From Saprospiraceae bacterium (GTDB lineage Bacteria > Bacteroidota > Bacteroidia > Chitinophagales > Saprospiraceae), in contig JAJCYI010000167.1 in assembly GCA_029263015.1 (NCBI GenBank), forward strand, positions 1-64,000: a stretch of DNA of 64,000 nucleotides, written 5' to 3'. A model generated the notes under the pieces. That model worked only from the letters and a program-made list of their open reading frames with translations, was not told the origin of the DNA and searched no databases. Positions 31,834 through 58,516 of this stretch are shown one piece after another; the first letter of the stretch is position 1; every line of letters begins with the position of its first letter. Position numbers and translations under genes: made by a program.

Positions 31834-31994
31834 GAGGTTGTTAGGAATTTAGGTTTCGAGTGAAAAATTGACAATCTTTTGATGAGACGAGGCAAAAAAG
31901 TGGGAGCATAGTGGCTCTATTTGACCAAATTTTTAACACAGTATCATCAAAAAAGTGGCGGGTTTTCGCCGGAAGCTAAATTCTTAACAACCTC
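31834..31994 (+). repeat. GCATAG-core foldback element, copy 1
   Basis: The 161-bp element has terminal arms GAGGTTGTTAGGAATTTAG (31834-31852) and its near-complement ending TTCTTAACAACCTC (to 31994). Inner arms continue through TTTTGATGA/TCATCAAAA. The centre reads GGCAAAAAAGTGGGAGCATAG and then TGGCTCTAT, followed by TTTTTAACAC. The core matches four other copies in the window. It has no open frame and sits in the longest gene-free stretch (31391-32429), where I see no other structure; the AT-rich frames there are too short and unlike proteins. Confidence 0.8.
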
Positions 31995-32400
31995 GTATGT
32001 ACAGTTGGTTATAATTTGAAAATAGTAATTCCCTAAGTGGAAGGATCCTTAAATCAATTTCTTACTTCAAAAGGGTATTTAATTGGATGTATCACGCAGT
32101 CAGACAAAATCATTTGTCCTTGAATATTCAAAAAGCGAATCGTAAAAGTAATAGTTAATTCTGATATTTCAATAAAAATAATGTTAGTAAATGGCCACAG
32201 AATTGGCAGCCTATTATCATTCATTTAATCACACTTATTAAAATGGAGGGGAATACTGGTCAATGCCTATTATTAATTGGAGGGAGTTTTAGGACTTAGA
32301 AAGAATAGATGAGTTGCTTTCTTTAAACAACCATGCATCTGACCCAATGAGATAGAGCGGAGGCCAAGACGTTTTCCACAATAAGGTCAAGATGGGTTTA

Positions 32401-32408
32401 TATATTTG
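32401..32408 (+). promoter_or_regulatory. -7 box for the glycosyltransferase gene at 32430
   Basis: TATATTTG fits TAnnTTTG. Transcription should start about 7 bases downstream, after the in-frame TTG-like upstream start but before ATG 32430, which is why I choose the ATG. Confidence 0.5.
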
Positions 32409-32429
32409 CCGCTCCAACTGACAACCTAT

Positions 32430-33179
32430 ATGTATAAAAATAAAAAAGTCATAGCCGTACTACCTGCCTATAATGCGGCTTTGACGCTGGAGAAAACTTT
32501 CCAAGAGATTCCTTTCCCACTTGTCGATGAAGTCATCCTTTGCGATGATGCTAGCAAAGACGATACTGCCAAACTTGCCAAGCGCCTGGGCATCCAACAT
32601 GTAATCATTCACGAACAAAACAAGGGTTACGGCGGCAATCAAAAATCGCTTTACAACAAAGCCCTCGAACTTGGCGGCGACATCGTCATAATGCTGCACC
32701 CTGACTATCAGTACACCCCCAAGCTGATTCCTTCTTTTGTCAATATAATAGGGGAAGGCTTGTATCCTGTCGTGCTGGGCAGCAGGATTTTGGGCAAAGG
32801 CGCTTTGCGGGGAGGTATGCCTTATTATAAATATATTTCCAACCGCTTTCTCACATTTACTCAAAATCTGTTGATAGATTACAAGTTATCAGAGTACCAT
32901 ACAGGCTACCGGGCTTTCTCGCGGGAAGTTTTGGAATCCATCCTTTTTAATGGAAATTCAGACGATTTTGTATTCGATAATGAAATGTTGTCACAGATCG
33001 TTTATGCCGGGTTCGATATTGCTGAAGTGACCTGTCCAACCAAATACTTTGAGGAAGCATCTTCCATCAATTTCAAACGGAGCATGAAGTATGGGCTGGG
33101 AGTATTGCGGGTATCGCTCTGCCATTTCCTGCAACGGAAAGGAATATCAAAATTTGAAATGTACCAAAAAGGGAAGTAA
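32430..33179 (+). CDS. Family 2 glycosyltransferase (dolichol-phosphate-mannose-synthase-like)
   Basis: From ATG 32430 (MYKNKKVIAVLPAYNAALT) the protein has 249 residues. An earlier in-frame start would lie inside the promoter. The GT-A fold is complete: AYNAALTLEKTF at the nucleotide-binding start, the first Asp pair in VILCDDASKDDTAK, NKGYGGNQKSLYNKAL, and a DxD-like motif in MLHPDYQYTP. It lacks the C-terminal membrane pair found in the paralogue at 42225, so it is probably soluble or peripheral. The sugar and acceptor are unknown. The stop codon TAA (33177-33179) is the first three bases of a foldback element. Confidence 0.88.
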   Translation: MYKNKKVIAVLPAYNAALTLEKTFQEIPFPLVDEVILCDDASKDDTAKLAKRLGIQHVIIHEQNKGYGGNQKSLYNKALELGGDIVIMLHPDYQYTPKLIPSFVNIIGEGLYPVVLGSRILGKGALRGGMPYYKYISNRFLTFTQNLLIDYKLSEYHTGYRAFSREVLESILFNGNSDDFVFDNEMLSQIVYAGFDIAEVTCPTKYFEEASSINFKRSMKYGLGVLRVSLCHFLQRKGISKFEMYQKGK

Positions 33180-33339
33180 GTAGTCGGACATATTTATGTT
33201 GATATTTTGGCGAGTTTATTTTTAGTGAGGACAAGACAAAAAAATTAAGCATAGCCGTAGCTACGGTTCCTTTTTTTAACGCAGTCATCGCTGAAAAGAA
33301 GCCGCCAAAAATGTTAAGATAATTGTGTCCGACTACTTA
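33177..33339 (+). repeat. GCATAG-core foldback element, copy 2
   Basis: The 163-bp element has perfect 14-bp terminal inverted repeats, TAAGTAGTCGGACA (33177-33190) and TGTCCGACTACTTA (33326-33339). Inner arms are imperfect (TTTTGGCGAG... against ...GCCGCCAAAA). The core is GACAAAAAAATTAAGCATAG, then CCGTAGCTACGG, then TTTTTTTAACGCAGTC. The first three bases of the element are the glycosyltransferase stop codon. Copy 3 has the same length and TAAGTAGTCG ends. Confidence 0.85.
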
Positions 33340-33341
33340 GT

Positions 33342-33428
33342 TCAATCCTTTTGATCAATTATTTCAATGGCTTTCAGGCCAAAATAGATGGCGGCAAGTA
33401 TAAGTGTATAGGTAAGGGTAGCGATCAT
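33342..33428 (-). CDS. Possible 28-residue single-span membrane peptide
   Basis: The frame MIATLTYTLILAAIYFGLKA then EIIDQKD has a hydrophobic helix followed by a short charged tail, like many small membrane proteins. There is no promoter box or ribosome-binding site I can support and the coding length is short, so this may be chance. Its 5' side faces the TIGR02757 gene, divergently oriented. Confidence 0.25.
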   Translation of the reverse strand: MIATLTYTLILAAIYFGLKAIEIIDQKD

Positions 33429-33548
33429 ATTCAGTTGGCTGTTTGTAATCAGCAGTTCCGATTTGGACGGCAAATGTCGGAATTCTGGTGTGAATAACGG
33501 AAAACACGGCAGGTTTCTTTTGTCTTTTTTGGCAAAACCATTTTTAAA

Positions 33549-34316
33549 ATGCAAAGCAACTTAAAAGCACTGCTCGACGAATGTATCGGAAAATACAACC
33601 AACCCAGCTTCATCGAAAGCGATCCCATTTGCATACCCCACCGTTTCACCAAAAAACAAGATATAGAAATCACGGCATTTTGGACGGCCACATTCGCCTG
33701 GGGGCAGCGAAAGACCATCATCAATAAAGCCGACGAATTATTTGAGTTGATGGATCATGCCCCATTTGATTTCATTAAAAACCACGAAGAAAAAGACCGG
33801 AAGCGGTTTCTTGAATTCAAACACCGAACTTTCCAGCCGACCGACACGCTTTATTTTTTAGCATTTTTGCAGTGGTTTTACCAAAACCATACATCGTTGG
33901 AGGAAGCATTTTTATTGAACTTAAAAAAAGAAGATGCCCATGTCGGCAATGCATTGATTGGGTTTCAAAACTTGTTTTTTTCACTGCCAGATGCGCCCAA
34001 GCGAACACGGAAACACGTCGCTTCGCCTACTACCAAATCCACATGCAAACGCCTCAACATGTTCTTACGTTGGATGGTCAGAAATGATGGGAAAGGTGTG
34101 GACTTTGGCATTTGGAAAAAGATAAAAACCTCGCAACTGCTCATCCCGTTGGACGTACATGTTGATCGGATCGCTCGTAAATTTGGGCTGTTGCAGCGCA
34201 AACAAACTGACTGGTTGGCTGTTTTGGAATTAACAGAAAAATTGAAAAAATTTGACTCGGACGATCCTGCAAAATATGATTTTGCCTTGTTCGGGTTGGG
34301 GGTTTTGGAAAAGTAG
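33549..34316 (+). CDS. TIGR02757 (DUF2400) family protein
   Basis: The 255-residue protein is of the usual length for this Bacteroidota-widespread family. Characteristic parts are the N-terminal helix block (LLDECIGKYNQPSFIESDPI, HRFTKKQDIEITAFWTATFAWGQR), the central region, and near the end IPLDVHVDRIARKFGLLQRKQ. The last motif (P-x-D-x-H-V-x-R) resembles the substrate-lysine/aspartate region of HhH-GPD DNA glycosylases, so a link to DNA repair is possible but unproven. There is no signal peptide. The TAG stop (34314-34316) lies at the first bases of a double-hairpin repeat. Confidence 0.85.
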   Translation: MQSNLKALLDECIGKYNQPSFIESDPICIPHRFTKKQDIEITAFWTATFAWGQRKTIINKADELFELMDHAPFDFIKNHEEKDRKRFLEFKHRTFQPTDTLYFLAFLQWFYQNHTSLEEAFLLNLKKEDAHVGNALIGFQNLFFSLPDAPKRTRKHVASPTTKSTCKRLNMFLRWMVRNDGKGVDFGIWKKIKTSQLLIPLDVHVDRIARKFGLLQRKQTDWLAVLELTEKLKKFDSDDPAKYDFALFGLGVLEK

Positions 34317-34374
34317 CGCGGATTTCCAAATCCGTAAACCGAATAAATATTACGGACTCGGAAGTCCGTTCTAC
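34313..34374. repeat. Double hairpin filling an intergenic gap
   Basis: The unit begins GTAG (34313) with CGCGGATTTCCAAATCCG and closes with CGGACTCGGAAGTCCG then CTAC (34374). The TAG of the first four bases is the stop of the upstream gene, and the next gene's ATG is 2 bases after the end. It belongs to the GTA...TAC family. Confidence 0.65.
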
Positions 34375-34376
34375 CA

Positions 34377-34955
34377 ATGCACGAAATAGAACCATATCAC
34401 CGTTGGCAGGACAATTACAACTCCACAGAGGATCAGCTTTCTCCATTTTTTGGCAGAACCTACGATGAGTTTTATTATTCTCAGAAGATTTACAACTACT
34501 TCATCCACCCGCAATGGGACAATTTTGGTTCAGCGACCCTTTACATGAAAATCCTTTACACCGATTATGAAAATGGCTATGCTGTTTTTGAAATGCTCGG
34601 CGAATGGAATGACTGCCTGCACAACGACGTGATGTTTTTAAAACGGGACGTGGTGGACGAGATCATGCAGCATGGTATTAACAAGTTCGTCCTCCTCGCC
34701 GAGAATGTCCTCAACTTCCACGCCTCCGATGACTGCTATTATGAAGAATGGTACGAAGATGTGAACGACGGTGCAGGATGGGTCTGCTTATTGAATTTAT
34801 TGCCACACGTGGAGGAAGAAATGAAAGACGCCCACCTCGATCATTTTATCCATTTTGGAGGTCCTCTCAGTAATATCAATTGGCGAGGGATGTCGCCAAA
34901 TAATTTTCTCAAAGCTGTTGAAGGACTGATGGCAATGCAGCGGCGGCTGGCATAG
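34377..34955 (+). CDS. Conserved hypothetical protein (192 aa)
   Basis: This acidic, aromatic-rich cytosolic protein has no signal or membrane segment. Notable parts are YHRWQDNYNSTEDQLSPFFG, TLYMKILYTDYENGYAVFEMLGEWNDCLHND and FGGPLSNINWRGMSPNNFLKAVEG. It is probably a beta-rich single domain. It starts 2 bases after a double-hairpin repeat that separates it from the TIGR02757 gene, so the two may share a transcript. I do not recognise a named family; it appears conserved in style, without frameshifts, so I regard it as a real gene. Confidence 0.75.
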   Translation: MHEIEPYHRWQDNYNSTEDQLSPFFGRTYDEFYYSQKIYNYFIHPQWDNFGSATLYMKILYTDYENGYAVFEMLGEWNDCLHNDVMFLKRDVVDEIMQHGINKFVLLAENVLNFHASDDCYYEEWYEDVNDGAGWVCLLNLLPHVEEEMKDAHLDHFIHFGGPLSNINWRGMSPNNFLKAVEGLMAMQRRLA

Positions 34956-35043
34956 TACTTTGTCAACATTAAATGTCCTAACTTTATACCCCAACCTCAT
35001 TAATTTCACCAAAAAAAAATAGAAACCACTAAAACTCAGAGAC

Positions 35044-36261
35044 ATGTTAAGTTCACTAAAAAAATTATTGTTCGGTGCAAAAGCCGTTACCAAATCAGCG
35101 GCTGACAAGGCCGTGCAAGCAGGGAAAGGAGCTGGGAAAGATTTGTCCGATGCTGCTGGAGACCTGTTTGATGATACAAAAAATACCGTCTCAGAAATTG
35201 GTAGCGACCTGTTGGATAAAGCTACCGACCTGAGCGATAAAGCCATCGATAAAAGCCAAGAATTCGCTCATAAAGCTGAAGACATGGCCGAAGCCGCTGG
35301 AGACAAAGCAATAGATTTTGGGAACAATATTATGGAAAAGGCCGGCGACCTATCCAAAAAGGTGATTGAAAAAGGAAACGAATTTGTCAACCCAACAGAT
35401 GATGTGCCAGAAGCAGTGAAAGATCAGGTTGAAGAATCAGAAAATGACCTTATGGCCAGCCTTTTCGATAATGAGGAATTTCCTGACGAGGAAACCGAAA
35501 GCCCCCTTGACCAAGCTGTAGACATAGCTGAGGAGACTGGCAAAAAAGTAGCGGATAAGAGTAGCGACCTCGCCAATAAAGCTGGTGATCTTACGGAAAA
35601 TATCGGAGGCAAAGTAATCGAGACAGGAAGCAACCTTGTAAAAAAAGCTGGCAACATAGCTGAAGATGTTGGCAAACAGGTGCTGGACACTGGCAGCGAT
35701 CTCGGCAACAAAGCTGCTGGGGTGGCTGAAAATATTGGAAGCAAAGTAATTGAAACCAGCAGCGAGACCCTTGATAAATTTGGCGAATCAGCTGAACAAA
35801 TTGGCAAGACCATCATAGATAAAGGCGGCGATGCTTTGGATATGGCAAAAGACCTCGCTGGCGACCTCGGTTCTAAAATCACTGGTTCTGCCGAAGAGCT
35901 TTTCAGCAAAGCACAGGAAGAAGCTGCCAAATCGGAAAAATCTGCCGACAGTTTAATCGACTCTGCCAAGGACATGGCTCAAAAACTCGAAGACAAGATC
36001 ACAGGCAACAACACCCCATTTTCCGACAAACCAATGGACGTTGGCGATAGTGAACTTGGCAAGCACGATAGCTTCTGGGACAAAGCCTCCAAATATGCCG
36101 AAGGCGATTACCACATGGAAGGCGAAAAACCTAAAGAAGGAGAAATGACCATCGGAGAAAATCCTGATTATACTGCTCCAGAAAAAGGAAAAATAAAAGG
36201 ATTCGACGATCTTGACGGAGATGGTGATGAGCTGATCGACGATGCAATTATTGATGAATGA
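35044..36261 (+). CDS. Long LEA-like amphipathic repeat protein
   Basis: The 405-residue protein has no signal peptide. Its first residues (MLSSLKKLLFGAKAVTKSAA) form an amphipathic helix. Most of the rest is a degenerate 11-residue-type repeat: KATDLSDKAIDKSQEFAHKA, DKSSDLANKAGDLTENIGGK, DTGSDLGNKAAGVAENIGSK. These are typical of LEA group 3-like helices that fold on drying or at membranes. The C-terminal 70 residues are acidic and lack the repeat (DSELGKHDSFWDKASKYAEGDYHMEG...). It resembles the smaller protein at 20357, suggesting paralogy. It sits alone; function is inferred from composition. Confidence 0.75.
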   Translation: MLSSLKKLLFGAKAVTKSAADKAVQAGKGAGKDLSDAAGDLFDDTKNTVSEIGSDLLDKATDLSDKAIDKSQEFAHKAEDMAEAAGDKAIDFGNNIMEKAGDLSKKVIEKGNEFVNPTDDVPEAVKDQVEESENDLMASLFDNEEFPDEETESPLDQAVDIAEETGKKVADKSSDLANKAGDLTENIGGKVIETGSNLVKKAGNIAEDVGKQVLDTGSDLGNKAAGVAENIGSKVIETSSETLDKFGESAEQIGKTIIDKGGDALDMAKDLAGDLGSKITGSAEELFSKAQEEAAKSEKSADSLIDSAKDMAQKLEDKITGNNTPFSDKPMDVGDSELGKHDSFWDKASKYAEGDYHMEGEKPKEGEMTIGENPDYTAPEKGKIKGFDDLDGDGDELIDDAIIDE

Positions 36262-36434
36262 ATGAAAGCCAATGAACAACGAGTAACGAATAATGAGTAA
36301 TTGTTCATTATTCATTATTCATCGGCTGAGTCCCTTCCATACATTTCAAACAGGCGATTCGACACTTCAGTCGTAAAAATTTTACCGTTCCCCCTAATCG
36401 CTGCACCTTGCGGGCAAATTCAACTTTATTCAGA

Positions 36435-38606
36435 ATGAAAAAACCCGCCTTCCTTTTTATTGCCGTTTTTATCTCCTCTTTCCTTTGGTCACAAACAACT
36501 GTCAAAGGCATCGTTACCAGCCAAAATGGCGATCCGGTAATCGGTGCAAATGTCTTTTTGAAAGACACTTACGATGGCACTTCTACGGAGGTAGATGGCC
36601 GTTTTGAATTTACGACCACGGAAACGGGCGAGGCCATTTTGGCTATCACCTATATCGGTTTCAAAGATTTTGAGCAAACCATTCATCTCAGTGCCAACAA
36701 GGTGGAAGTCAACCCACAGATTGAAGAAATCCCCAACGAACTCAATATGGTGGTCATTTCTGCTGGGGCTTTTGAAGCGAGCGATGAGAAAAAAGCCGTC
36801 ATGCTCAGTTCGCTCGACATCGTGACCACCGCAGGTGCCACTGCCGACATCGCCGGAGCACTGAATACCTTGCCGGGTACACAGACGGTCGGCGAAGAAG
36901 GGCAGCTATTTGTGAGAGGTGGGGCGGCCTATGAAACCCGAACCTTTATTGACGGATTGTTTGTCCAAAACCCATACAGCAGCAGGGTGCCGGACATTCC
37001 GGCAAGAGGACGGTTTTCGCCTTTTTTGTTCAAAGGGACGATGTTCAGCACGGGCGGTTACTCGGCAGAATATGGGCAGGCACTTTCCTCTGCGCTCATC
37101 CTCAACACCAATGACCTGGCGCCAGCAACCACAACTGGGGTTTCCCTTATGACGGTTGGCCTCGGTGCATCACATACCCACCTTTGGAACAAATCATCGC
37201 TCGCCGTTTCGGGCAATTACATCAACATCGCTCCTTATAATACCATTATTCCGCAAGACCGGGAATGGGACAAACCTTATCGGGGCGTGGATGGACAAAT
37301 TATTTTCAGGCAAGAAGTATCGGAAACGGGCATTTTTAAATTGAACATCAATGGCAGCCACGGCTCGTTAGGCTTACAAACGCCAGGTTTTGAAGATGTC
37401 ACACAGACGAACCCTTTATCATTGGACAATAACAATTTTTACCTCAATTCTTCTTTCAAAGAAATCTTAGACGATCATTGGACTTTGTGGACAGGTATTT
37501 CTTATAGCGATGACCAAGAGAACATCAACGAACTGTTTTCGGTAAATACCAACGAGCGGTCGGCACAGGCAAAAGTCACGCTGACCAATAATGTGAGCCA
37601 GTATTTTAAAATAAAATTTGGAGGGGAATACCTGCGGAATAATTTTGACGAAAAATTTATTTCCTCCACTGGAGAGGAATTTACCACGGAACTAACCGAC
37701 GACTATGGGGCAGGTTTTGTGGAAGCCGATATTTATTTGAGCAAAGATTTTGTTGCCCGTATCGGTACACGGGCGGAATTTTCGGATATGCTGGAAAAAT
37801 GGAACATGGCTCCACGGATTTCATTGGCATATAAAACAGGGGAGAAAGGGCAGTTTTCGCTCGCTTACGGTCAGTTTTTCCAAACGCCCGAACACGAACT
37901 ACTCCGCTTCGGCACTGGCCTTGATTATGAAAAGGCAGACCACTATCTACTCAATTATCAGGTGATGGGGGAAAAGCGAACTTTCCGCATTGAGGGGTAT
38001 TTTAAAAAATACAACAACTTGGTAAAACAATACGATGAGATGGAAGGGATATTCACCAATAATGGGGGCGACGGTCATGCCCGCGGGGTGGATATATTTT
38101 ACCGGGACAAAGGCGGTACGCTGAAAAAAGCGGACTTCTGGATTTCTTATTCCTTCCTCGATACAGAGCGGGATTGGCGGGATTACCCGCAGGCAGCAAC
38201 GCCCACTTTTGCATCCAAGCACAATGCGTCCATCGTGTACAAACAGTGGCTTCCAAAAATCACAAGTTCTATCGGCTTCACTTATTCTTATGCAAGTCCT
38301 CGGCCTTATAACGACCCCAATACTGGAGGATTTAATGACAACCGTACTCCCTCATACCACGACCTGAGTTTCAATGTCAGTCACCTTACCAATATTGGAC
38401 GCCATTTCACAGTACTGTATGCGTCGATAAATAATATACCAGGTTTCGACAACACCTTCGGCTACCGATATAGCAGCACCTCAAACCCTGACGGCAGTTT
38501 TACAGGCATCCCTGTCAAGCCGGCAGCCAAAAGATTTTTCTTCATCGGTTGCTTCATTTCCATCGGGCAAAGGTTCTCGAAGGACAATGGGGTAACTAGT
38601 GATTAG
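36435..38606 (+). CDS. TonB-dependent receptor with carboxypeptidase-like N-terminal domain
   Basis: From ATG 36435 (MKKPAFLFIAVFISSFLWSQ) the protein has 723 residues. After the signal peptide comes a carboxypeptidase-like regulatory domain (TVKGIVTSQNGDPVIGANVFL, about 20-100). A plug follows (ADIAGALNTLPGTQTVGEEG, LFVRGGAAYETRTFIDGLFV), then a beta-barrel that ends with GCFISIGQRFSK. This is a substrate-specific outer-membrane receptor energised by TonB. The ligand is not predictable, as no SusD-like partner is adjacent. It may be a metal or siderophore receptor rather than a glycan one. The longer frame beginning at 36408 is less likely. Confidence 0.9.
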   Translation: MKKPAFLFIAVFISSFLWSQTTVKGIVTSQNGDPVIGANVFLKDTYDGTSTEVDGRFEFTTTETGEAILAITYIGFKDFEQTIHLSANKVEVNPQIEEIPNELNMVVISAGAFEASDEKKAVMLSSLDIVTTAGATADIAGALNTLPGTQTVGEEGQLFVRGGAAYETRTFIDGLFVQNPYSSRVPDIPARGRFSPFLFKGTMFSTGGYSAEYGQALSSALILNTNDLAPATTTGVSLMTVGLGASHTHLWNKSSLAVSGNYINIAPYNTIIPQDREWDKPYRGVDGQIIFRQEVSETGIFKLNINGSHGSLGLQTPGFEDVTQTNPLSLDNNNFYLNSSFKEILDDHWTLWTGISYSDDQENINELFSVNTNERSAQAKVTLTNNVSQYFKIKFGGEYLRNNFDEKFISSTGEEFTTELTDDYGAGFVEADIYLSKDFVARIGTRAEFSDMLEKWNMAPRISLAYKTGEKGQFSLAYGQFFQTPEHELLRFGTGLDYEKADHYLLNYQVMGEKRTFRIEGYFKKYNNLVKQYDEMEGIFTNNGGDGHARGVDIFYRDKGGTLKKADFWISYSFLDTERDWRDYPQAATPTFASKHNASIVYKQWLPKITSSIGFTYSYASPRPYNDPNTGGFNDNRTPSYHDLSFNVSHLTNIGRHFTVLYASINNIPGFDNTFGYRYSSTSNPDGSFTGIPVKPAAKRFFFIGCFISIGQRFSKDNGVTSD

Positions 38607-38712
38607 TCGCCTAGTCCTCAAATATGTAGCTATTCAATAGGCAACCTATTTCTGGACTATGCTACTGACTACTGTTCACTAATCAACTAATCACTAATCA
38701 ACTAATTCAAAA

Positions 38713-39363
38713 ATGAAAAAAACCATCATCTTCCTCCTTTCTTTTGCAATCTGTTCAACAACGTTTGCACAAAATGACAAATACACAGCTGCTATGGAAA
38801 AGGCTGTTGCACAAACGGACACGGCACGCAACCTTGAGGGCTTTAAAGCAGCAGGCAATATGTTTGAGCGCATCGCCAATGCGGAACAAGAGCAGTGGCT
38901 ACCCTTTTATTACCATGCCTTTTGCCAAGTGCGACAGGCCATAATCGTGATGAACGATGGTGACGGAAAAGCGACTGTTCCCTATCTTGATAAGGCTCAG
39001 GAATCGATCGATATAGCCCAAAAACTATCGCCTAACAATTCCGAAATAGTCACCATGCAAGGATATATCTATCAAGGCAGGATATGGGAAAACCCAATGA
39101 CAAAAGGCGCAAAATACGGCCCTAAATCAGGCGGTGTCCTCGACAAAGCAATCGAATTGAATCCTGAAAACCCGCGTGCATATTATGTAAAAGGGCAAGG
39201 CATTTTTTATACCCCCGCTTTTTTTGGTGGCGGTGCAGACAATGCAAGACCACTTTTGGAGAAAGCTAAAGAATTGTACGACAAAGAGGAAAGAGAAAAC
39301 GCTTTGTCTCCAGCATGGGGAAGCTATTACAATAACTACCTGTTGGAAGAGGCGAATAAGTAA
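38713..39363 (+). CDS. Secreted TPR-like protein
   Basis: The 216-residue protein has a signal peptide (MKKTIIFLLSFAICSTTFAQ) and a helical-repeat region (YTAAMEKAVAQTDTARNLEG, PYLDKAQESIDIAQKLSPNN, GGVLDKAIELNPENPRAYYV) with the spacing of tetratricopeptide repeats. It ends YNNYLLEEANK. It should be periplasmic. It follows the TonB-dependent receptor by 106 bases that contain a simple repeat (CTAATCA units), so co-transcription is possible. TPR scaffolds are usually adaptors; no partner is shown. Confidence 0.75.
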   Translation: MKKTIIFLLSFAICSTTFAQNDKYTAAMEKAVAQTDTARNLEGFKAAGNMFERIANAEQEQWLPFYYHAFCQVRQAIIVMNDGDGKATVPYLDKAQESIDIAQKLSPNNSEIVTMQGYIYQGRIWENPMTKGAKYGPKSGGVLDKAIELNPENPRAYYVKGQGIFYTPAFFGGGADNARPLLEKAKELYDKEERENALSPAWGSYYNNYLLEEANK

Positions 39364-43169: not shown

Positions 43170-43189
43170 CCTGCCTGACGGTAGGCAGG
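43170..43189. repeat. CCTGCCT...AGGCAGG palindrome near a GTAAA tract
   Basis: CCTGCCTGACGGTAGGCAGG has 7-bp arms, sits 16 bases before the glycosyltransferase ATG and just downstream of its -7 box, so it would be a hairpin in the 5' leader. Simple repeats (GTAAA, AAAAGTAAAAAGT) flank it, as at 20314-20329 and 63701-63721. Confidence 0.6.
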
Positions 43190-49530: not shown

Positions 49531-49551
49531 GGGTATTTTGAGAAGGTTGAT

Positions 49552-50609: not shown

Positions 50610-51823
50610 ATTTTCAACAAAGCACAACCCAATACAACAATTAAAAGCACCGATAATAATTGAAATGTTACCCGCCAATTTGAATCAACTTTCATATCTT
50701 CTTTATTCGTCTCCAAAGAATTGCTCCACGCAATAAACGCATCTGCCATTGGCAATTGGCCAAAAATATATTTCTTCTTCCCATTCACTGTGTATGCTGC
50801 TCCAAAAGCCTCAAGGCAATTTCTCAAACCTTCACATATTTCCCAGTTTCCGTATTCGCCCATTGTCCTTTGCCCCACTATTGAAGCGGCTCCTCCGATG
50901 CCCAAGATTACTGGGCCTGAATCAATATCCCCTTTTCCTTTTTGCCCTTTCGGATATTCCCTTATCCCAGGCAAGCCAAACCTCCAATCCAGAAATAGTT
51001 CTTTGTAAATGCCAAACTGTTTTTTTGAAAGATCTTCGTCAATATCTCTTAAAAAATGCAATATCAAACTTTGAGATGACCCTCTTGCACCCTCCATTGT
51101 TTCCCCATTAATTGAATTAACTGAATGGGGGATTAATCCTGTTTCGGGATCTAATCTATTTATTACTTTAATTAGCCATTCGTCAATCTGATATTGATAT
51201 AGTGGATCAAACATCTTATCGTGGATACTCAAAGAAGCGACCCCAACAATTATATCTGCGGGCCAAGCCTGGCCAATATAAGATTCCAAATATGGGTTCG
51301 CTGAATGGCTCAAAGCAGTTGCAATACGGTCGCAATTTTTCTTGAACATTTTGACTTCGACAGAATCCCTACTATTATGCGATTGAAGCATTAATTTATT
51401 TCCCAATAAATAATTGCTCCAACCGCTATAGAATGCGCCATATTCCAATGGCAGTTTTTTATCAAAAGTCATTTTGGCACTCTGCGAATTAATTTCATTT
51501 AATGCCCAACTTATCTGGCTCTCTCCTTCTTTATATTTGGAAGAGTTTCTATCGAGATTATAAACCAAGTTACACCAACTCAACGCATACAACGCATTAA
51601 TAAAAACAAATCCTTCAGGAAACATTTTTTGCATTTCAGCACCTGCCCCATTCTGAAGTTCTGCTTTTAAAAAATTGAGTTGGTTGTAAACATCTTCGTT
51701 ATACTCAACGCCATTTTCCTCAATAAATTTAGGTGAATAATAAAGTGAAGCATTCAAATAGCCAATTCCGATAATTATTGCAACAAGTGCTGATTTAATA
51801 AATATTTTTATTGCTTTTTTCAT
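50600..51823 (-). CDS. Membrane-anchored protein of unknown function (407 aa)
   Basis: There is an N-terminal membrane segment (IFIKSALVAIIIGIGYLNA) and a second at the C-terminus (FQLLSVLLIVVLGCALLKI). The body is helical, with conserved-looking stretches YIGQAWPADIIVGVASLSIH, GLIPHSVNSINGETMEGARG, SSQSLILHFLRDIDED and IDSGPVILGIGGAASIVGQR. That pattern resembles alpha/alpha-toroid enzymes (linalool dehydratase/isomerase-like and related), but I cannot assign a reaction. The stop lies in a 24-bp repeat shared with the next gene's end. The hydrolase gene downstream may be co-transcribed (125-base gap). Confidence 0.7.
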   Translation of the reverse strand: MKKAIKIFIKSALVAIIIGIGYLNASLYYSPKFIEENGVEYNEDVYNQLNFLKAELQNGAGAEMQKMFPEGFVFINALYALSWCNLVYNLDRNSSKYKEGESQISWALNEINSQSAKMTFDKKLPLEYGAFYSGWSNYLLGNKLMLQSHNSRDSVEVKMFKKNCDRIATALSHSANPYLESYIGQAWPADIIVGVASLSIHDKMFDPLYQYQIDEWLIKVINRLDPETGLIPHSVNSINGETMEGARGSSQSLILHFLRDIDEDLSKKQFGIYKELFLDWRFGLPGIREYPKGQKGKGDIDSGPVILGIGGAASIVGQRTMGEYGNWEICEGLRNCLEAFGAAYTVNGKKKYIFGQLPMADAFIAWSNSLETNKEDMKVDSNWRVTFQLLSVLLIVVLGCALLKINN

Positions 51824-51957
51824 CGTGCAGATAAGAACCGGTTGCAGGCAAGCGCCATCGGAAAGTTTAATTCAAATATTTCGAAAAGCCCATTTCAAAA
51901 ACAAAAAACGTTTACTAAACTTAAACGTAAGCCACAGTATTTTGACAATTCTCAAAA

Positions 51958-54627
51958 TCAAACCTCTTTTCGCAGCACCTCCAACGGCGGTTTTGTCACC
52001 ACCTCTCGGCTGTTCAGCAACCCGATCAACATCGTCAATCCGGTTATGCCGAGAAAGACGTAAACGGCTGGCATCAAATTCGGCTTGTAAGGGATTTCGA
52101 GCGACCAGGTTGCCAATGCCCAACTGGCAACTATAGAAAGGCCAATGCCCGTCAATGTCGCCAATGACCCAAGGAAGAAATATTCGATGGCATTGATGCG
52201 GACAATTTGACGACGCCTGGCACCGAGGGTACGGAGCAGCACAGATTCCTGGATGCGCTGGAATTTTGTCAACACCACCGAACTGATTAGGACTACCAGC
52301 CCCGTGAGGATGCTGAACAAGGCCATAAAACGGATCACAAATGAAATCTTATTCAAGACTGATTCGACTGATTTCAATATCTGGGTAAGGTCAATGACCG
52401 AGACGTTAGGGTAATCCTTGACCAGTTGTTGCTGGTAACGGGCGGATTGCTCTTCCGATTCTACTTTTGAAACCACGACATAAATCTGTGGTGCCTGCTC
52501 CAAAACACCGACCGGAAACACCACAAAAAAGTTGGTCTGCACACGTTTGAAATCAACTTCCCGGATGCTGCCAACGACCGTTTCGATCAGCGCTCCCTGC
52601 ACATTGAAAGTGATCTTGGTGCCGGCCTTAGCTTTCATGGAGCGGGCAATCCGTTCGGAAAGGGAAACATAGATAATACCGTCCTCGCCAACTGTGCCGT
52701 GCCACTCTCCTTCGATGATCTTTTCCGTTTCGATCATAGTGTCCCGATAGGTCACCCGATACTCCCGTTCATACACCCAACTGCTGCGAAAACGCCGTTC
52801 CTGGGGTTCTCCGTCCTCGCCGCGTTGTTGTGGTCGGTCTGGCTCACGGCCTTCCTCTCGGGCGCGTTTCCGCTCTTCCCGCCAAGCGATCCTTGCCGTG
52901 TCCCGATTGTGCATCTCATGGGTAATGCCATCAATGTCGTCCACTCGTATGGTGACAATGGGGACAAGTTGTTTTACAGGAAGGTGATTAGCTTTGGTCA
53001 ACTCTACAACACCCTCTTTTTGAGGAGGCTGAATGTCAAAGACGATCATATTGGGCACATCGCCCGAACCCGTGTATTCCACCTGTTTCAACAAAAGGTC
53101 TTGTACCAAAAACAAAGTCGAAATAAGTGCCGAACCTAATCCAATGGTTACGACAAGAATTAGTGTTTGGTTATTGGGTCGATAAAGATTAGCAATACCC
53201 TGCCGCCAAACAAAGCTCCAGTTTCTTGGGAAAAACTTTCGCACAGCCCAGGTCAATGCTTTAGCAACGCCGGTCAACGCCAAAAAGGCGACGCCGATGC
53301 CGACAGGGAAAAACAGGGTTTCCAAACTCCGCGTTTGCAGGAGCGTAAAACCACAAACAAAAAGAAAGATCAGCAGGTAAACCATCCAACGAAGTGGATC
53401 CCTTGCACTCGTATCTTCTTCATACGATGCCCGCAATGTACGCAGTGGAGAAACCTTTCTGATGGCCAACAAGGGCAACAATGCAAATAAAACTGTGATG
53501 CCCAAACCTGTCAGAATGCCTATACCCATTGCTTTCCATGAAATTTCAGCACTGACATTTTGCACAGGTAAAAAATCACCAAGCACCGCCGGGAGGCTGA
53601 TTTGCAGGAAGCTGCCCAGAGCTGCGCCCAGCAAGCCTCCGGCCAAGCCCAAAGTCACTACCTGGATAAAATAAATCTGGAACGCCTGCCACCCTTTCAC
53701 CCCCAAGCATCGAAGTACAGCAATGCTCGCCATTTTGTCCCTGATATAAATATGGACGGAACTCGCCACACCGATACACCCCAGCAACAATGCGATGAAC
53801 CCAACCAAGTTCAAGAAGACATTCATATTGGCAAATGCTTCACTGACATTCTCTTGCCGTTCGGCCACCGTGTCGAATTCAAATGAAGTGTTTTCGAGCG
53901 CTGGGCGCAATATCGTGACCACATCGTCTTCCACATTGGCTTCTTCAGGAAATTCAAAATGGTATTGGTACTCTACCAAGCTGCCCGGCTGAATCAGGTT
54001 GGTCTGTTGGATATATGCTTTCGGAATGTAAACCACTGGAGCTATTGCACCAGCAATGCCTGATCGCCCTGGTGCAGCGTTCAACCGTCCCTCGATCACA
54101 AACGGCACGTTGCCCACCCGCACCGTATCGCCTACTTCGAGCGAGAATTGCAGCATCAAGGTTTTCTCGACCAAAGCAATGGCCGGCGGCATTTCACCTT
54201 CTGGAAGAGAGGCCATTTTCCGAAATGTTGTTTCTGCTTCAATAGGCTCAGTAGCCAGTTTTCCAAAAAAAGGAAAAGCACCTTCTTGCGCCCTGATCTG
54301 TGAGAGTCTTGTTCCGCCGTTTTTTGGGAAATAAGCCATTGAGACAAGACTCACCGTCTCCGATTGGCGGATCGGCCCCAACAGGTCGAACACTTGTTGG
54401 ATACTATCGGGAGCTGACTGATTGCCATTCACGATGAGGTCTGCACCGAGCAGGCTCTTGGCTTCGTTGCCAATGTCTCTCTGAAGGTTTTCGCTAAAAG
54501 AGTTGATCGCCACCAAAGCTGCTATGCCGATGACGATGGATGCGATGAAAAGAAGTAGGCGGCTCCGGTTGCGTCGGCTGTCCCGCCACGCCATCTTCAA
54601 GAGCCATGTAGTTGTTGGTTTGGACAA
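51958..54627 (-). CDS. FtsX-type ABC permease (YbbP-like, large)
   Basis: The 889-residue protein has the two-FtsX-domain layout of YbbP/LolE-related permeases: an N-terminal segment (LLLFIASIVIGIAALVAINS), a periplasmic MacB-like domain, three-segment FtsX blocks around residues 275-395 and 765-870, and pairs of membrane helices between. The first residues TTTWLLKMAWRDSRRNRSRL are typical, but the start is TTG at 54627; an ATG at residue 12 would also keep MAWRDSRRN. A long polar insert around residues 590-640 is unusual (RKRAREEGREPDRPQQRGED). The partner ATPase is not adjacent, so it must be encoded elsewhere or this permease acts without one. Confidence 0.87.
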   Translation of the reverse strand: MSKPTTTWLLKMAWRDSRRNRSRLLLFIASIVIGIAALVAINSFSENLQRDIGNEAKSLLGADLIVNGNQSAPDSIQQVFDLLGPIRQSETVSLVSMAYFPKNGGTRLSQIRAQEGAFPFFGKLATEPIEAETTFRKMASLPEGEMPPAIALVEKTLMLQFSLEVGDTVRVGNVPFVIEGRLNAAPGRSGIAGAIAPVVYIPKAYIQQTNLIQPGSLVEYQYHFEFPEEANVEDDVVTILRPALENTSFEFDTVAERQENVSEAFANMNVFLNLVGFIALLLGCIGVASSVHIYIRDKMASIAVLRCLGVKGWQAFQIYFIQVVTLGLAGGLLGAALGSFLQISLPAVLGDFLPVQNVSAEISWKAMGIGILTGLGITVLFALLPLLAIRKVSPLRTLRASYEEDTSARDPLRWMVYLLIFLFVCGFTLLQTRSLETLFFPVGIGVAFLALTGVAKALTWAVRKFFPRNWSFVWRQGIANLYRPNNQTLILVVTIGLGSALISTLFLVQDLLLKQVEYTGSGDVPNMIVFDIQPPQKEGVVELTKANHLPVKQLVPIVTIRVDDIDGITHEMHNRDTARIAWREERKRAREEGREPDRPQQRGEDGEPQERRFRSSWVYEREYRVTYRDTMIETEKIIEGEWHGTVGEDGIIYVSLSERIARSMKAKAGTKITFNVQGALIETVVGSIREVDFKRVQTNFFVVFPVGVLEQAPQIYVVVSKVESEEQSARYQQQLVKDYPNVSVIDLTQILKSVESVLNKISFVIRFMALFSILTGLVVLISSVVLTKFQRIQESVLLRTLGARRRQIVRINAIEYFFLGSLATLTGIGLSIVASWALATWSLEIPYKPNLMPAVYVFLGITGLTMLIGLLNSREVVTKPPLEVLRKEV

Positions 54628-54766
54628 AATGGTGGATTAGTGGTTAGTGAATAGATGAATAGTGATTAGTTGGCTGGAGAAACAAATTTGTCTTTCTTAT
54701 ATACTTTGGGGTTTGCCATTTGATAAATAGCTGCGAAAATAATGATTTTGAACACAATGTGATTAT

Positions 54767-54929
54767 TAAGTAGTCGAGTCTAAATACATTCCGTTTTTAT
54801 CGGCTGCTTTTTCCATATAGCTGCGTTAATAAAAAGTTCACGTAGCCAGGCTATGCTCACTTTTTTTGCCTTGCTGTACGAAAAGATCAACTCGCTAAAA
54901 TTCGGAAATTATTTAATCTCGACTACTTA
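54767..54929 (-). repeat. GCATAG-core foldback element, copy 3
   Basis: The 163-bp element is the same length as copy 2, with terminal arms TAAGTAGTCGAG and CTCGACTACTTA. The minus strand core reads GGCAAAAAAAGTGAGCATAG, then CCTGGCTACGTG, then CTTTTTATTAACGCAG, and aligns throughout with copy 2. The 54628-55053 gap contains this element and simple AGTGATTAG-type repeats, nothing else I can identify. Confidence 0.85.
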
Positions 54930-55017
54930 CATCGATCAACCCTAATCACTGTTCAACTAATCACTAGTCTCTACCCAACTAATCCTCTAATTTTACCACC
55001 CCTAAACAACACAAGTG

Positions 55018-55025
55018 TACTTTTG
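55018..55025 (+). promoter_or_regulatory. -7 box for the BatC-like gene
   Basis: TACTTTTG (TAnnTTTG) lies 28 bases before ATG 55054. The leader is short. A TTG six bases before the ATG is unlikely to be the start. Confidence 0.55.
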
Positions 55026-55053
55026 TATTTAACAGGCAACAACTTTTTTGACA

Positions 55054-55770
55054 ATGAAAGCTATTTTCAAGATAAACTTATTGGTTTGGGCGGTTTTAGC
55101 CGCGTTTTCGCTCCCCGCCCAAAATGACCACAAGCACCTTCTCAAAGGTGACCAATCTTATGAAGACCAAAACTTCGAGCAGGCCGAACTCAGTTATCGC
55201 CGGGCGCTCGAACAACAAAATTCGACTAAGGGAATCTACAACCTTGGCAATACGACCTACCGTCAAGAACGCTACGATGAAGCCATCAGCCATTACGAAG
55301 CTGCCGCAGAATCGGCAAATGACAATATTTCGAAATCGAAAGCATTTCACAACCTTGGCAATGCCCATTTCCAAGCCGAACAATACAAAGAAAGTGTGGA
55401 AGCCTATAAAAATGCCCTTCGTCTAAACCCAGGCGATCTCTCCACGAAACAAAACCTTCTCCGCGCTATTCGGAACCTGCCTCCCCCACAGCAACAACAG
55501 CAGCAACCCCAAGATGGAGAAAACCAAGAAAACCAGGATCAGCAACCACAGGATCAAAATCAGCAAGAACAAGAGGAAGATCAGCAGCCACAGGAACAAG
55601 ATAACGAGCAGCAACAAGACCAATCACCTAAAGGGCAAAAGGAACAAAGCAAAGACCTGAGCAAAGAAGAAGCTGAAAAATTGCTCGAAATCATGGATCA
55701 AGAGGAACAAAAAGTCCAGGAAAAATTGCGGAAAGCTGGGACGAAAGGGAAGCAGAAAAAGGATTGGTGA
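55054..55770 (+). CDS. BatC-like TPR protein with Gln-rich tail
   Basis: From ATG 55054 the protein has 238 residues, a signal-like N-terminus (MKAIFKINLLVWAVLAAFSL) and three TPRs in residues 25-135 (SYEDQNFEQAELSYRRALEQ, YDEAISHYEAAAESANDNIS, YKESVEAYKNALRLNPGD). A low-complexity Gln/Glu/Asp-rich tail follows from about residue 140 to 200, then a charged helix ending GKQKKDW. BatC proteins of Bacteroides and Leptospira have this layout and are linked to aerotolerance (Bat) clusters. The other bat genes are not nearby here. Two small lipoproteins follow on the same strand. Confidence 0.8.
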   Translation: MKAIFKINLLVWAVLAAFSLPAQNDHKHLLKGDQSYEDQNFEQAELSYRRALEQQNSTKGIYNLGNTTYRQERYDEAISHYEAAAESANDNISKSKAFHNLGNAHFQAEQYKESVEAYKNALRLNPGDLSTKQNLLRAIRNLPPPQQQQQQPQDGENQENQDQQPQDQNQQEQEEDQQPQEQDNEQQQDQSPKGQKEQSKDLSKEEAEKLLEIMDQEEQKVQEKLRKAGTKGKQKKDW

Positions 55771-55797
55771 GGCAGTTGGCAGTTAAAAAATGAGGAA

Positions 55798-56112
<315 letters not shown>

Positions 56113-56113
56113 G

Positions 56114-56473
56114 ATGAAATGCACCTTCCCATATATGCTAATTATATTCATAACCGTTTTGGGGACTGCTTGTGAAAAACCTCCTTCCAAAACCAAGTCC
56201 GAGGTCATGCAGGAAAGGTTAGACGGCCGCCTCGACCGTTGGAGGAAAGGGGTGAAAAGGGTTTGCCTTAAAAAAGTACTGGAGGACGCAGAGGCCATAG
56301 TGGACTCTACCTTACTGGCTAATGCCCGTTTCAAAAGGGACACTTCTGACATCCCAATTGTTCCTGAGAGACCGGACAGACCTGATTTTGTGCCACCTGA
56401 AGATTCGGTGGCCGTGGAGCCGATATTTGGAAAGGAAGATACTTTGAATGGAGAATTGAAAATTGAAAATTGA
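56114..56473 (+). CDS. Small lipoprotein
   Basis: The 119-residue protein has a clear lipobox, LGTAC, in MKCTFPYMLIIFITVLGTAC. The mature part is polar, with basic and acidic helices (RLDGRLDRWRKGVKRVCLKK, DAEAIVDSTLLANARFKRD), then a Pro-rich stretch (IPIVPERPDRPDFVPPED) near the C-terminus. There is no recognised domain. It begins two bases after the previous lipoprotein's stop, so the two are almost certainly co-transcribed, with the BatC-like gene upstream. Both small proteins may act as accessory envelope proteins for it; this is inference from spacing. Confidence 0.75.
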   Translation: MKCTFPYMLIIFITVLGTACEKPPSKTKSEVMQERLDGRLDRWRKGVKRVCLKKVLEDAEAIVDSTLLANARFKRDTSDIPIVPERPDRPDFVPPEDSVAVEPIFGKEDTLNGELKIEN

Positions 56474-56487
56474 AAAGTACCTGCCAG

Positions 56488-57183
56488 TCATTTTACCATC
56501 TCATAATACTCCTCTAACCGCTTTTGGAGTTTCACCACCATTTCATTATAAAATTCACTCTCCTCTTTTTTGTTGAAGAATTTGGCCAAGGCTCGCTTTA
56601 TCGTCGATATTCCCGAAAAAAAAGGAAACGGTTCAACAAGCTCCTTTAAATTGGAATCCAGCATCACTAATCCATCAACCCCTGACTTCCTTGAAGAAAT
56701 GGGGTTTCCATAATACAAAACCAAATAAGGTTTTCCGTCCAATGAGATGCCAGGATCCAACTTCATATTTTCATTAAGAAAATACCCTTCCTGCACGCCA
56801 TTTTTCAGTTGGATGGCAGAAGTATCGAGCATGTAAATGGTTTCTGAAAAGGAATAATGGTCTCTCAAAGCTTGTATCAACCTTTCATTTTCCAGCCGTA
56901 CTTCGCGTTGGTAATCAACTATTTTTTTTTCAAATTTTTCACGATCATATTCCGCTACATTTTGGCTGCTGACAACTTGCTGCATCGCTTTTATTTTGCT
57001 ATTGCCTGTTTTGAGGCGGACGACCAGCACACCCTTTTTTAAGTCTTTGATGGCCTGTTGTGCGATGGTCTGCCGATTTAGAGTTCCGAGGATATCGTAA
57101 TTAGCACCAGTATCATATCCTTGGCCAAGAAGATGAGTTGTCGAAAAACTGACCAATGAAAAAATAAAAATCAGAGCTTTCAT
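56488..57183 (-). CDS. Secreted conserved hypothetical protein
   Basis: From ATG 57183 (MKALIFIFSLVSFSTTHLLGQ) the protein has 231 residues with a signal peptide. The longer frame to 57300 would read through the palindrome at 57212. The mature part opens GYDTGANYDILGTLNRQTIA, has a basic helix (VDYQREVRLENERLIQALRD), a repeat-free beta segment with KPYLVLYYGNPISSRKSGVD, and ends with a helix (FFNKKEESEFYNEMVVKLQK). It is convergent with the lipoprotein gene. I do not recognise a family. Confidence 0.65.
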   Translation of the reverse strand: MKALIFIFSLVSFSTTHLLGQGYDTGANYDILGTLNRQTIAQQAIKDLKKGVLVVRLKTGNSKIKAMQQVVSSQNVAEYDREKFEKKIVDYQREVRLENERLIQALRDHYSFSETIYMLDTSAIQLKNGVQEGYFLNENMKLDPGISLDGKPYLVLYYGNPISSRKSGVDGLVMLDSNLKELVEPFPFFSGISTIKRALAKFFNKKEESEFYNEMVVKLQKRLEEYYEMVK

Positions 57184-57211
57184 TCCCAATAGCTTTATTT
57201 GATTTGGCGCA

Positions 57212-57242
57212 GGTGTCGGACGCCTTGGAGGCGTCCGACACC
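57212..57242. repeat. Palindrome touching the RluA-type stop codon
   Basis: GGTGTCGGACGCC and GGCGTCCGACACC are perfect 13-bp arms around TTGGA. The last base (57242) is also the third base of the RluA-type gene's TAG stop on the minus strand. The half GGCGTCCGACACC recurs in the hybrid palindrome at 17237. Confidence 0.75.
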
Positions 57243-57970
57243 TAATCCGCCAATTTGTCCCGAAAAAAATCCCATACCGGATCAGGAGGAGGATCAGCAA
57301 CCAACGTTTCCAATTCTTTCGAAATGGGATGCTTGAAACTCAACTTCCACGCATGCAAATGAATGGATCGATCCTTATTGCTGCGACGGAAACCATATTT
57401 TACATCACCTTTTACGGGGTTTTCGATGGCAGCCAATTGTGCCCTGATCTGGTGGTGGCGACCAGTGAGCAGTTCCATTTCCAACAGGTGGTAATTGTCG
57501 CTACTGCCCTTTAGCTGGAATTTCAACTCCGCCACTTTGCTACTAGGCAGTTCTTCTTCCAGCGCTTCCGACTTATTTGCTTTTTGGTTCTTGATCAAAA
57601 AATGACGGAGCGTAAATTCCTCTTCTGGCGGTTTGTTTTTAACGACAGCGAGATAGGTTTTGCGCACCGTCCGCTCCTTGAATTGGTCGGTCAGCGAACC
57701 AATGGCCTTTTTGTTTTTTGCAAAAACCACCACCCCGCTTGCCGGGCGGTCAATCCGATGGATGAGGTAAAGTTTTGACTTAGAGTAGATTTCAGCAAGC
57801 TGGTGCAATGATTTATCCCCAGTTTTATCTGCTTGCACAGGTATGCCGGGCGGTTTGTTGAAAGCAATGAGCTGATTGTTTTTATAAATAACCCAATCGC
57901 CGATGTTCGAGGCCGGCTGGTCTTCCCCGGATTTATTTTGCGATTCCTCGTTGTTAGTTGCTGGATTCAT
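57242..57970 (-). CDS. RluA-family pseudouridine synthase
   Basis: The 242-residue protein is of the single-domain RluA type. The catalytic motif is HRIDRPASGVVVFAKN near residue 75, with the catalytic Asp in RIDR. Other family motifs are NKPPGIPVQADKTG, LTGRHHQIRAQLA and the C-terminal RSIHLHAWKLSFKHP. It isomerises uridine in rRNA or tRNA; the exact target cannot be told. Its start overlaps the DUF4834-like gene by 17 bases, implying coupling. A palindrome begins at the stop codon. Confidence 0.92.
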   Translation of the reverse strand: MNPATNNEESQNKSGEDQPASNIGDWVIYKNNQLIAFNKPPGIPVQADKTGDKSLHQLAEIYSKSKLYLIHRIDRPASGVVVFAKNKKAIGSLTDQFKERTVRKTYLAVVKNKPPEEEFTLRHFLIKNQKANKSEALEEELPSSKVAELKFQLKGSSDNYHLLEMELLTGRHHQIRAQLAAIENPVKGDVKYGFRRSNKDRSIHLHAWKLSFKHPISKELETLVADPPPDPVWDFFRDKLAD

Positions 57971-58157
57971 TTTTCTGTTTTATCTCCTCGAAATCAATGT
58001 AATCGTCCTTGTTCTCCTTTTTATGTGCCTTTTTCTCATTGTAATGATGGTGGTGGACGGTGGTCTTGTTCCCGTCATCTTTTAGTTTCACTCTTTCTTG
58101 AAACCAAGAATAGACGATGTACCCAATGATGGCCCAAAGCAATATTTTAAAAAGCAT
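57954..58157 (-). CDS. DUF4834-like small membrane protein
   Basis: The 67-residue protein starts with one membrane segment (LFKILLWAIIGYIVYSWFQE) and continues as a charged tail containing HHHHYNEKKAHKKENKDDYI. Small proteins of this layout (DUF4834) are widespread in Bacteroidota and are often encoded beside tRNA- or rRNA-modification genes. It overlaps the RluA-type gene and is preceded by a -7 box at 58179-58172. The function is unknown; a His/Lys-rich tail could bind metal or RNA. Confidence 0.7.
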   Translation of the reverse strand: MLFKILLWAIIGYIVYSWFQERVKLKDDGNKTTVHHHHYNEKKAHKKENKDDYIDFEEIKQKNESSN

Positions 58158-58171
58158 AACTTGATTTTTTG

Positions 58172-58179
58172 CAAAGATA
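58172..58179 (-). promoter_or_regulatory. -7 box for the DUF4834-RluA operon
   Basis: The minus strand reads TATCTTTG (TAnnTTTG), 14 bases upstream of ATG 58157, close to ideal. A foldback element starts at 58197, so its arm may supply the -33 region. Confidence 0.55.
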
Positions 58180-58196
58180 AATGATTACGAGCTTGT

Positions 58197-58363
58197 TAAG
58201 TGCCACGTACTAATTAATTCGGTAATTTTTAAAACATCTTTTTCCGCTATTTTTTCTTAAAAAATACTTCCGTAGGACACAGCTATGCAAGTATTTTTTA
58301 AGGAAAACTATCGAAAAAATCTTGCTTAAAAATTTTACCGAATTAATCACTACGTGGCACTTA
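58197..58363 (-). repeat. GCATAG-core foldback element, copy 4
   Basis: The 167-bp element has terminal arms TAAGTGCCACGTA (58197-58209) and TACGTGGCACTTA (58351-58363), perfect for 13 bases, continuing as TTAATTCGGTAA against TTACCGAATTAA. The minus-strand core reads AAAAAATACTTGCATAG, CTGTGTCCTACGG, then AAGTATTTTTTAAG. It is the most divergent copy outside the core. Its last three bases are shared with the start of copy 5. Confidence 0.8.
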
Positions 58364-58516
58364 GGGATTTAAGTTTCGGTGAAAACCCCCCACTTTTTTG
58401 ATAATACTTCGTTGGAAAATTGGTCGCATAGAACCACTATGCTCGCAATTTCCGCCTCGCCTCATCAAAGAATTGACAACTTTTCTCTCGAAACCTAAAT
58501 CCTTAACAATCTCTAA
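58361..58516 (-). repeat. GCATAG-core foldback element, copy 5
   Basis: The minus-strand core reads AAATTGCGAGCATAG, TGGTTCTATG, then CGACCAATTTTCC, and matches copy 1. The intact end on the right (to 58516) continues TTGTTAAGGATTTAGG like copy 1, but the left arm begins abruptly at TTAGGGATTTAAG where copy 4 ends, so about 7-10 bases of its arm are missing. The 58158-58551 gap holds only copies 4 and 5. Confidence 0.8.

Follow-up and report, generated by a model that had tools for sequence, protein, structure and literature searches.

Foldback elements of a Saprospiraceae genome: one conserved core, many kinds of terminal arm and a strand bias in folding

Foldback elements in the window

The DNA analysed here, termed the window, is a stretch of 64,000 bp from a Saprospiraceae bacterium (positions 1–64,000, forward strand, of contig JAJCYI010000167.1, C167 in the analysis), whose draft genome comprises 6.95 Mb in 245 contigs. 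The window carries five copies of a short foldback element that resembles miniature inverted-repeat transposable elements (MITEs). Such a five-copy family had been proposed in an earlier note made from the sequence alone, and a covariance model of the element core recovers all five as strong matches, with expectation values (E) of 1.5e-14 to 2.2e-10. The remaining core-model rows in the window are four antisense matches to copies already counted and one at chance level (E 0.79), and the model finds no sixth copy there. The copies are placed as follows, with the evidence for each.

31834..31994, plus strand: copy 1, type B, GAGGTTGTTAGG ends (core match 31867-31956 +, sequence)
33179..33337, plus strand: copy 2, type A1, AGTAGTCGGACA ends (core match 33211-33299 +, fold, sequence)
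54769..54927, minus strand: copy 3, type A2, AGTAGTCGAG ends (core match 54806-54894 -, strand folds)
58199..58361, minus strand: copy 4, type D, AGTGCCACGTA ends (core match 58237-58326 -, sequence)
58189..58513 (58189-58198 + 58364-58513), minus strand: copy 5, type B/C, split by copy 4 (core match 58392-58480 -, relative L013)

Copies 2, 3 and 4 share the palindromic layout TA + AGT...ACT + TA. Their bordering TA duplications are at 33177-33178 and 33338-33339, at 54767-54768 and 54928-54929, and at 58197-58198 and 58362-58363, respectively. The length of 163 bp first assigned to copies 2 and 3 does span the palindrome, but it includes the TA at either end, and the elements proper are shorter. 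The flanks of copy 1 differ (TTA at 31831-31833, GTA at 31995-31997); those of copy 5 are TAC (58186-58188) and TAA (58514-58516).

Copies 4 and 5 had been described as adjoining. Copy 4 is instead inserted within copy 5, with a TA duplication. When positions 58199-58361 and one TA are removed, copy 5 reads GAGCTTGT-TA-GGGATTTAAG, and an uninterrupted element of the same type, at locus L013, reads GAGCTTGTTAGGGATTTAG and represents a within-genome empty site.

The end-to-end fold of copy 2 has a predicted energy of -69.6 kcal/mol, compared with -29.6 +- 3.8 for shuffled sequences (z -10.5). Copy 3 folds with -54.7 kcal/mol on the minus strand and -49.4 on the plus strand. Copy 2 also adjoins a gene at 32430-33179, glycosyltransferase-like by reading, whose stop codon TAA consists of the TA duplication and the first base of the element (33177-33179); the insertion thus took place exactly at the end of this gene.

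One core with many terminal arms

Elements were collected by a finder that accepted only GCATAG-like cores bordered by the runs and with arms that aligned at a score of 60 or more; its 213 hits came to 180 distinct elements once duplicates were removed. Thirty-five representatives with differing terminal arms and no inserts were picked by hand from the 180. They are 156-164 bp in length (mean 159.9, standard deviation 1.8), and CATAG lies 71-75 bases from the 5' end in all of them. Longer copies, of 179-185 bp and with short inserts, occur as well in types E, I and B/C. The outer 28 bp of the 35 types fall into 13 clusters (single linkage, 60% identity), and the types are therefore not to be taken as 35 independent lines.

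The shared core consists of an A-run, GCATAG, CTACG and a T-run. It lies within a region of ~100 bp that is flanked by terminal arms of ~28-33 bp, and the consensus of the 35 types reads TATTTTTnnnTnnGACAAGGCAAAAAAnnnnnGCATAGCnnnAGCTACGGnAnnnTTTTTTAACGAAGTnnnnnGGAAAAAGA. When types are compared with one another, the conserved core blocks have identities of 0.54-0.76, two covarying stem blocks 0.44 and 0.36, and the parts farther out 0.31-0.50; composition alone predicts 0.27. Phasing of the A and T runs, a possible sign of curvature, has a resultant of 0.55 at 10.5 bp (chance 0.39, maximum 0.50) but a higher one, 0.64, at 11 bp. The core searches relied on GCATAG, and the constancy of this motif is therefore partly built in; AAATAG and GTATAG are also seen as core variants. 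The core model itself (R1) was built from 44 candidate cores, of which 16 were dropped (five false, 11 with inserts) and three near-duplicates omitted, leaving 25.

Mini-elements of ~47-54 bp, in which the core is deleted and just the two terminal arms are left, are present at L049 1221-1268, L050 1280-1326 and L054 998-1051. A different small sequence, the 20-bp palindrome CCTGCCTGCCGGCAGGCAGG, is found exactly in nine of 344 loci (L012, L014, L036-L040, L091, L144). Several of these copies sit within an arm of a type B or E element, and a variant is placed likewise in type I; a degenerate site with two mismatches lies at 43170-43189 of the window. This palindrome may be a separate mini-repeat.

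Target duplications and related transposons

A recognised end motif is present in 142 of the 180 elements; the other 38 were left unclassified. TA borders both ends in 35 of the 38 elements whose ends are IS630-like (types A, I, F, E and D). The second group (types T1, T2, T3, T4, H, G, B/C, P, Q, Q2, Q3 and Q4) has identical TNA trinucleotides in 91 of 102, and two further classified elements have neither. Among the 63 flank pairs of type T1 there are 31 of TTA, 21 of TAA, five of TCA and four of TGA, with two mismatched.

The host has four transposases that match PF13358, one of them below the family cut-off. By NCBIfam models, three are above the IS630 cut-off, and the fourth best fits ISAzo13 (189.6 bits, cut-off 200). 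The ends of these four transposons match arm types I, D and L299 (IS630) and G (ISAzo13-like) at 20-24 of 28 bases, a level reached by none or one of 2000 shuffled ends. Since four arm types have counterparts of this kind, the elements are apparently moved in trans by transposases of different families. The core model has no significant match inside the four host transposons. In relatives, the IS630 loci provide type-G-like ends at locus L344 (genome G016), with no convincing match in the others.

The elements are thus short, have terminal inverted repeats, no coding capacity and a target duplication, and, in four arm types, share their ends with an autonomous transposon, as expected of MITEs.

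Other candidate partners were rejected. At the 12 lone-end and mini-element loci L043-L054, scripted inverted-repeat searches and reading of the sequence (open reading frames were listed for two loci) revealed only truncated remnants and core-deleted minis. No convincing transposon for the Aquimarina T1 ends was found among the loci examined. An IS5-like element at L140, considered as a helper of type B/C, has an end match no better than chance.

This L140 transposon (~1390-2420, on contig C167 outside the window) belongs to DDE_Tnp_1 (PF01609) and has GAAGTTGTTTAAA ends and short inverted repeats of the GGGGTTTNAACC type at its borders; its ends matched no element type. A separate hairpin element is found at L140 2500-2588. 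In the relative G021, an IS630-like transposon with AGTACAAAC ends (L327 749-2040) is apparently inserted at the TA beside an element whose ends are GAAGCCATCTC, and is followed by a further end of this type.

Distribution and gene context

Copies are numerous beyond the window. The core model finds at least 150 matches in the host genome, the weakest among these with E 8.5e-8, and the exact pattern GCATAGCNNNNGCTA occurs 105 times there as opposed to four for a reversed-pattern control, which shows that the family exceeds chance. At least 38 of the 150 core-model matches start no more than 50 bases from the low end of their contig, so that the elements probably broke the genome assembly; one physical copy at contig ends may be counted twice.

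The core is present in 26 of 60 genomes including the host (25 of 59 relatives) and in seven of 296 genomes of a phylum sample, host included; up to 150 candidates were scored in the host, up to 73 per relative and up to 14 per genome of the phylum sample. Named genomes, Bacteroidota among them, contain at least 100 stretches with the core. Among 80 named loci listed, 52 are from Aquimarina sp. RZ0 and 28 from other records (Arenibacter, Aquimarina agarilytica, Marinifilum, Cyclobacteriaceae, Flammeovirgaceae, Chitinophagales, Saprospiraceae and others). Two of the listed loci are labelled gammaproteobacterial, one in a Leucothrix metagenome-assembled genome (L232, 56.6 bits) and one in a methanotroph endosymbiont (L226, 46.3 bits); by our reading of the sequence, the gene content of the L232 contig is gammaproteobacterial (e.g. 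an IscR-like regulator). No carriage by viruses, plasmids or phages was found in a pattern scan of viral_contigs and in one distant blastn search with copy 3 each of plasmids and phages. Still other ends surround the core at L166, L176, L193, L197, L208, L224 and other named loci, which are single loci of Marinifilum, Cyclobacteriaceae, Flammeovirgaceae, Chitinophagales, Saprospiraceae and Flavobacteriales records.

None of 112 elements, counted between predicted genes, lies within an open reading frame of 100 or more amino acids; in a separate context count, one of 25 has an 81-amino-acid frame across its centre. No consistent gene-context preference was found: convergent gaps hold 18 of 63, one of 28 and two of 21 elements in three counts, where gap length predicts 14-17%.

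Pairing and strand bias

In the alignment of the 35 types, both sides change in 31 of 40 predicted pairs. Of the cells, 90.1% pair; shuffling of partners lowers this to 66.2%, and sliding of the arms to 52.5% at most. A palindrome pairs by construction, however, and pairing alone is therefore no proof of a folded strand. A more discriminating comparison is that of G.T with A.C, since what is a G.T pair on one strand appears as an A.C mismatch on its complement, and the two should be equally frequent if there is no strand-specific selection or mutation.

On the strand where GCATAG comes first (the core strand), G.T outnumbers A.C by 170 to 78 over the 35 types, and by 76 to 11 in the outer 28 bp (p 4e-13). 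Twelve of the 13 end clusters agree with this bias, one is tied and none opposes it. At the level of copies, which are not independent of one another, the counts are 250 and 101 in the host (47 elements), 515 and 112 in named genomes (81 elements) and 192 and 71 in relatives (40 elements); in the relatives, 29 elements favour G.T, 10 are against and one is tied. The core strand also folds more stably than its complement: with RNA parameters this holds for 33 of 35 types (mean -67.6 vs -52.8 kcal/mol; the outer arms by themselves likewise give 33 of 35), and with DNA parameters for 34 of 35.

Other mismatches show a pattern as well. G.G and T.T together exceed A.A and C.C in the outer arms (40 vs 7) but are the fewer in the middle (17 vs 26) and inner arms (20 vs 39). 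The mismatches frequent in the outer arms are the more stable kinds. In the inner arms mismatches are purine-rich (A.G 97 vs C.T 21, A.A 38 vs T.T 4).

Rare variants in five copy families comprise 51 that make G.T and 41 that make A.C (p 0.35), those of T1 alone leaning the opposite way (6 vs 14); mutation bias therefore does not account for the G.T excess. No asymmetry is seen in 33 core-less palindromes of the same DNA (sum of the larger counts 79 vs 81.1 expected; chi2/df 0.85, compared with 1.79 for the elements). Host transcripts are an unlikely source, since orientation relative to flanking tandem genes is the same in 32 cases and opposite in 31. From these comparisons we infer that selection acts on a single-stranded form of the core strand.

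The earlier note had weighed a MITE-like transposable element and a structured RNA or protein-binding element. Target duplications, nested insertion, copy number and transposons with matching ends support the first reading, and the two-sided changes in the arms together with the strand-specific G.T excess support a structured element. Of the outcomes that the note named as refuting the family, those checked did not occur: more copies exist, the arms show covariation and Rfam has no match. The note had also left a choice between selection for pairing and copying of one arm from the other; selection for pairing is favoured, as arm copying alone would not give the G.T excess.

Interpretation

These elements are unusual in three ways: ends have been exchanged while the core was kept, the length hardly varies, and folding is biased to one strand, a bias that includes the transposon ends. 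On balance, we think it somewhat more likely than not that they form one MITE superfamily not bound to one transposase, and that the core strand passes through a folded single-stranded form. The transposase of a transposon with matching ends would move the element in trans. The core-bearing strand would at some stage be folded and single-stranded, its base being a double-stranded copy of the transposon end, and some factor that the hosts share would recognise the strongly conserved GCATAG..CTACG tip between the A and T runs. Single-stranded DNA would be a more likely form than RNA, because the target duplications and the transposon ends speak for transposition as DNA. The role would be cis-acting, which best fits a multi-copy, non-autonomous family, where selection retains in each copy what aids that copy.

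A bolder version can be put forward only tentatively, and we lean against it as a whole. According to this, the element is a transposase-agnostic mobile element whose propagated unit would be one folded strand, a fixed-length hairpin of single-stranded DNA (or RNA) with a conserved tip and a base that mimics a pre-cut transposon end. Any compatible transposase would insert it, and it would have switched transposase families in the Bacteroidota and at least some Gammaproteobacteria with its core kept.

Several observations weigh against the superfamily reading. The G.T excess is not significant in the middle arms (27 vs 20, p 0.38) or the inner arms (67 vs 47, p 0.075), and over whole arms A.C exceeds G.T in eight of 35 types (G.T is more frequent in 25, with two ties). 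A keto-rich composition skew of the core strand would look similar to the G.G and T.T excess of the outer arms and could conceivably underlie the bias. Flanks are identical in just six of nine B/C and seven of 11 T2 elements. For types A, B/C and T1, all of them numerous, the searches yielded no transposon whose ends match, and PF13358 is unmatched in the element-rich genomes G010, G028 and G037. Finally, the tests made fit DNA and RNA forms alike.

Among other explanations, the elements might be ordinary double-stranded MITEs, with a core kept by descent, ends acquired by recombination and palindromy maintained by arm-to-arm copying, so that no single-stranded form matters. This accounts for target duplications and transposon ends without a single strand, and the core-deleted mini-elements, as evidence of hairpin-linked rearrangement, speak for it. 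Arm copying with neutral decay predicts equal G.T and A.C, however, which the outer arms contradict; the rare variants show no significant bias and the core-less palindromes none, and near-constant length over the 13 end clusters is unpredicted. We regard this explanation as unlikely.

To the same degree unlikely is a structured RNA of ~160 nt, cis-acting or itself propagated, which transposases just insert. The tolerance of G.T (as G-U), the purine-rich internal mismatches of the inner arms and the compensatory changes are what such an RNA would display. On the other hand, the orientation of elements is unbiased relative to transcription of flanking genes, and a trans-acting RNA would not be maintained copy by copy in a non-autonomous family. 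Rfam 15 also has no match in the window at the gathering score, and the hits for copy 2 fall far short of it (best 22 bits, where gathering is at 90).

That the core is a bidirectional intrinsic terminator which lessens the harm of insertion is very improbable: the anatomy of A-run, stem-loop and T-run is suggestive and a scan marks both strands of copy 2 and one strand of copy 3, but such sites are no more frequent than in shuffled sequences of the copy 2 and copy 3 regions (2 vs 2.1; 6 vs 5.0), the preference for convergent gaps is inconsistent, and the pairing bias of the outer 28 bp is left unexplained.

Relation to known systems

Correia, ERIC, RUP, Nezha and QMITE2 (the last treated in PMC10969869) are examples of bacterial MITEs that are likewise short, non-coding and intergenic, with terminal inverted repeats, target duplications and stable stem-loops. 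To our knowledge, each of these families has one kind of end. The present elements differ in having one core with 35 kinds of arm (13 clusters), at least two transposase families and one strand favoured for folding. The anatomy is thus of the known MITE kind, and the one-strand folding bias is new. MITEs are usually taken to be decayed transposons that follow one helper; a single core that outlasts changes of ends and of transposase family suggests that something in the core or its fold is worth keeping.

The comparison of G.T with A.C supports, from the sequences themselves, selection for the folding of one strand. An old idea, said to have been proposed for small inverted-repeat elements but not found in the literature searched, is that they amplify via a single-stranded hairpin. 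With this evidence, such amplification becomes directly testable in cultured Flavobacteriia. No description of the core, or of MITEs with exchangeable ends, was found in the literature searched, including the parts consulted of PMC9769881 and PMC10969869.

With IS630 and ISAzo13 transposons the elements share the ends of arm types I, D and L299 (IS630) and G (ISAzo13-like) and the TA or TNA duplications; they differ in having no transposase gene, and the core was not found in the matched transposons.

In integron attC sites, whose boxes IntI recombines as a folded bottom strand, one strand folds, the structure is kept though stem sequence varies, and unpaired positions are conserved. The present elements would be similar in these respects by analogy only; they have target duplications and ends shared with DDE transposons. 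No attC boxes were recognised by eye in the elements.

Repetitive extragenic palindromic (REP) sequences and their RAYT (Y1) transposases offer another likeness, that of intergenic hairpins repeated in many copies. The present elements, however, have target duplications and are far longer than 20-40 bp. A RAYT/Y1 partnership was rejected, given these duplications and the failure to detect Y1 in the element-rich genomes G026 (50 matches), G013 (9) and G002 (12). In the host, no element lies beside any of the six Y1 genes above cut-off. Counter to this rejection, one element in G016 (C37) lies ~1 kb from a Y1 gene. The window also has a Y1 (PF01797) transposase-like gene at 21044-21388 on the minus strand (82.6 bits), which has no element of the present family alongside and is accompanied by inverted repeats of its own nearby.

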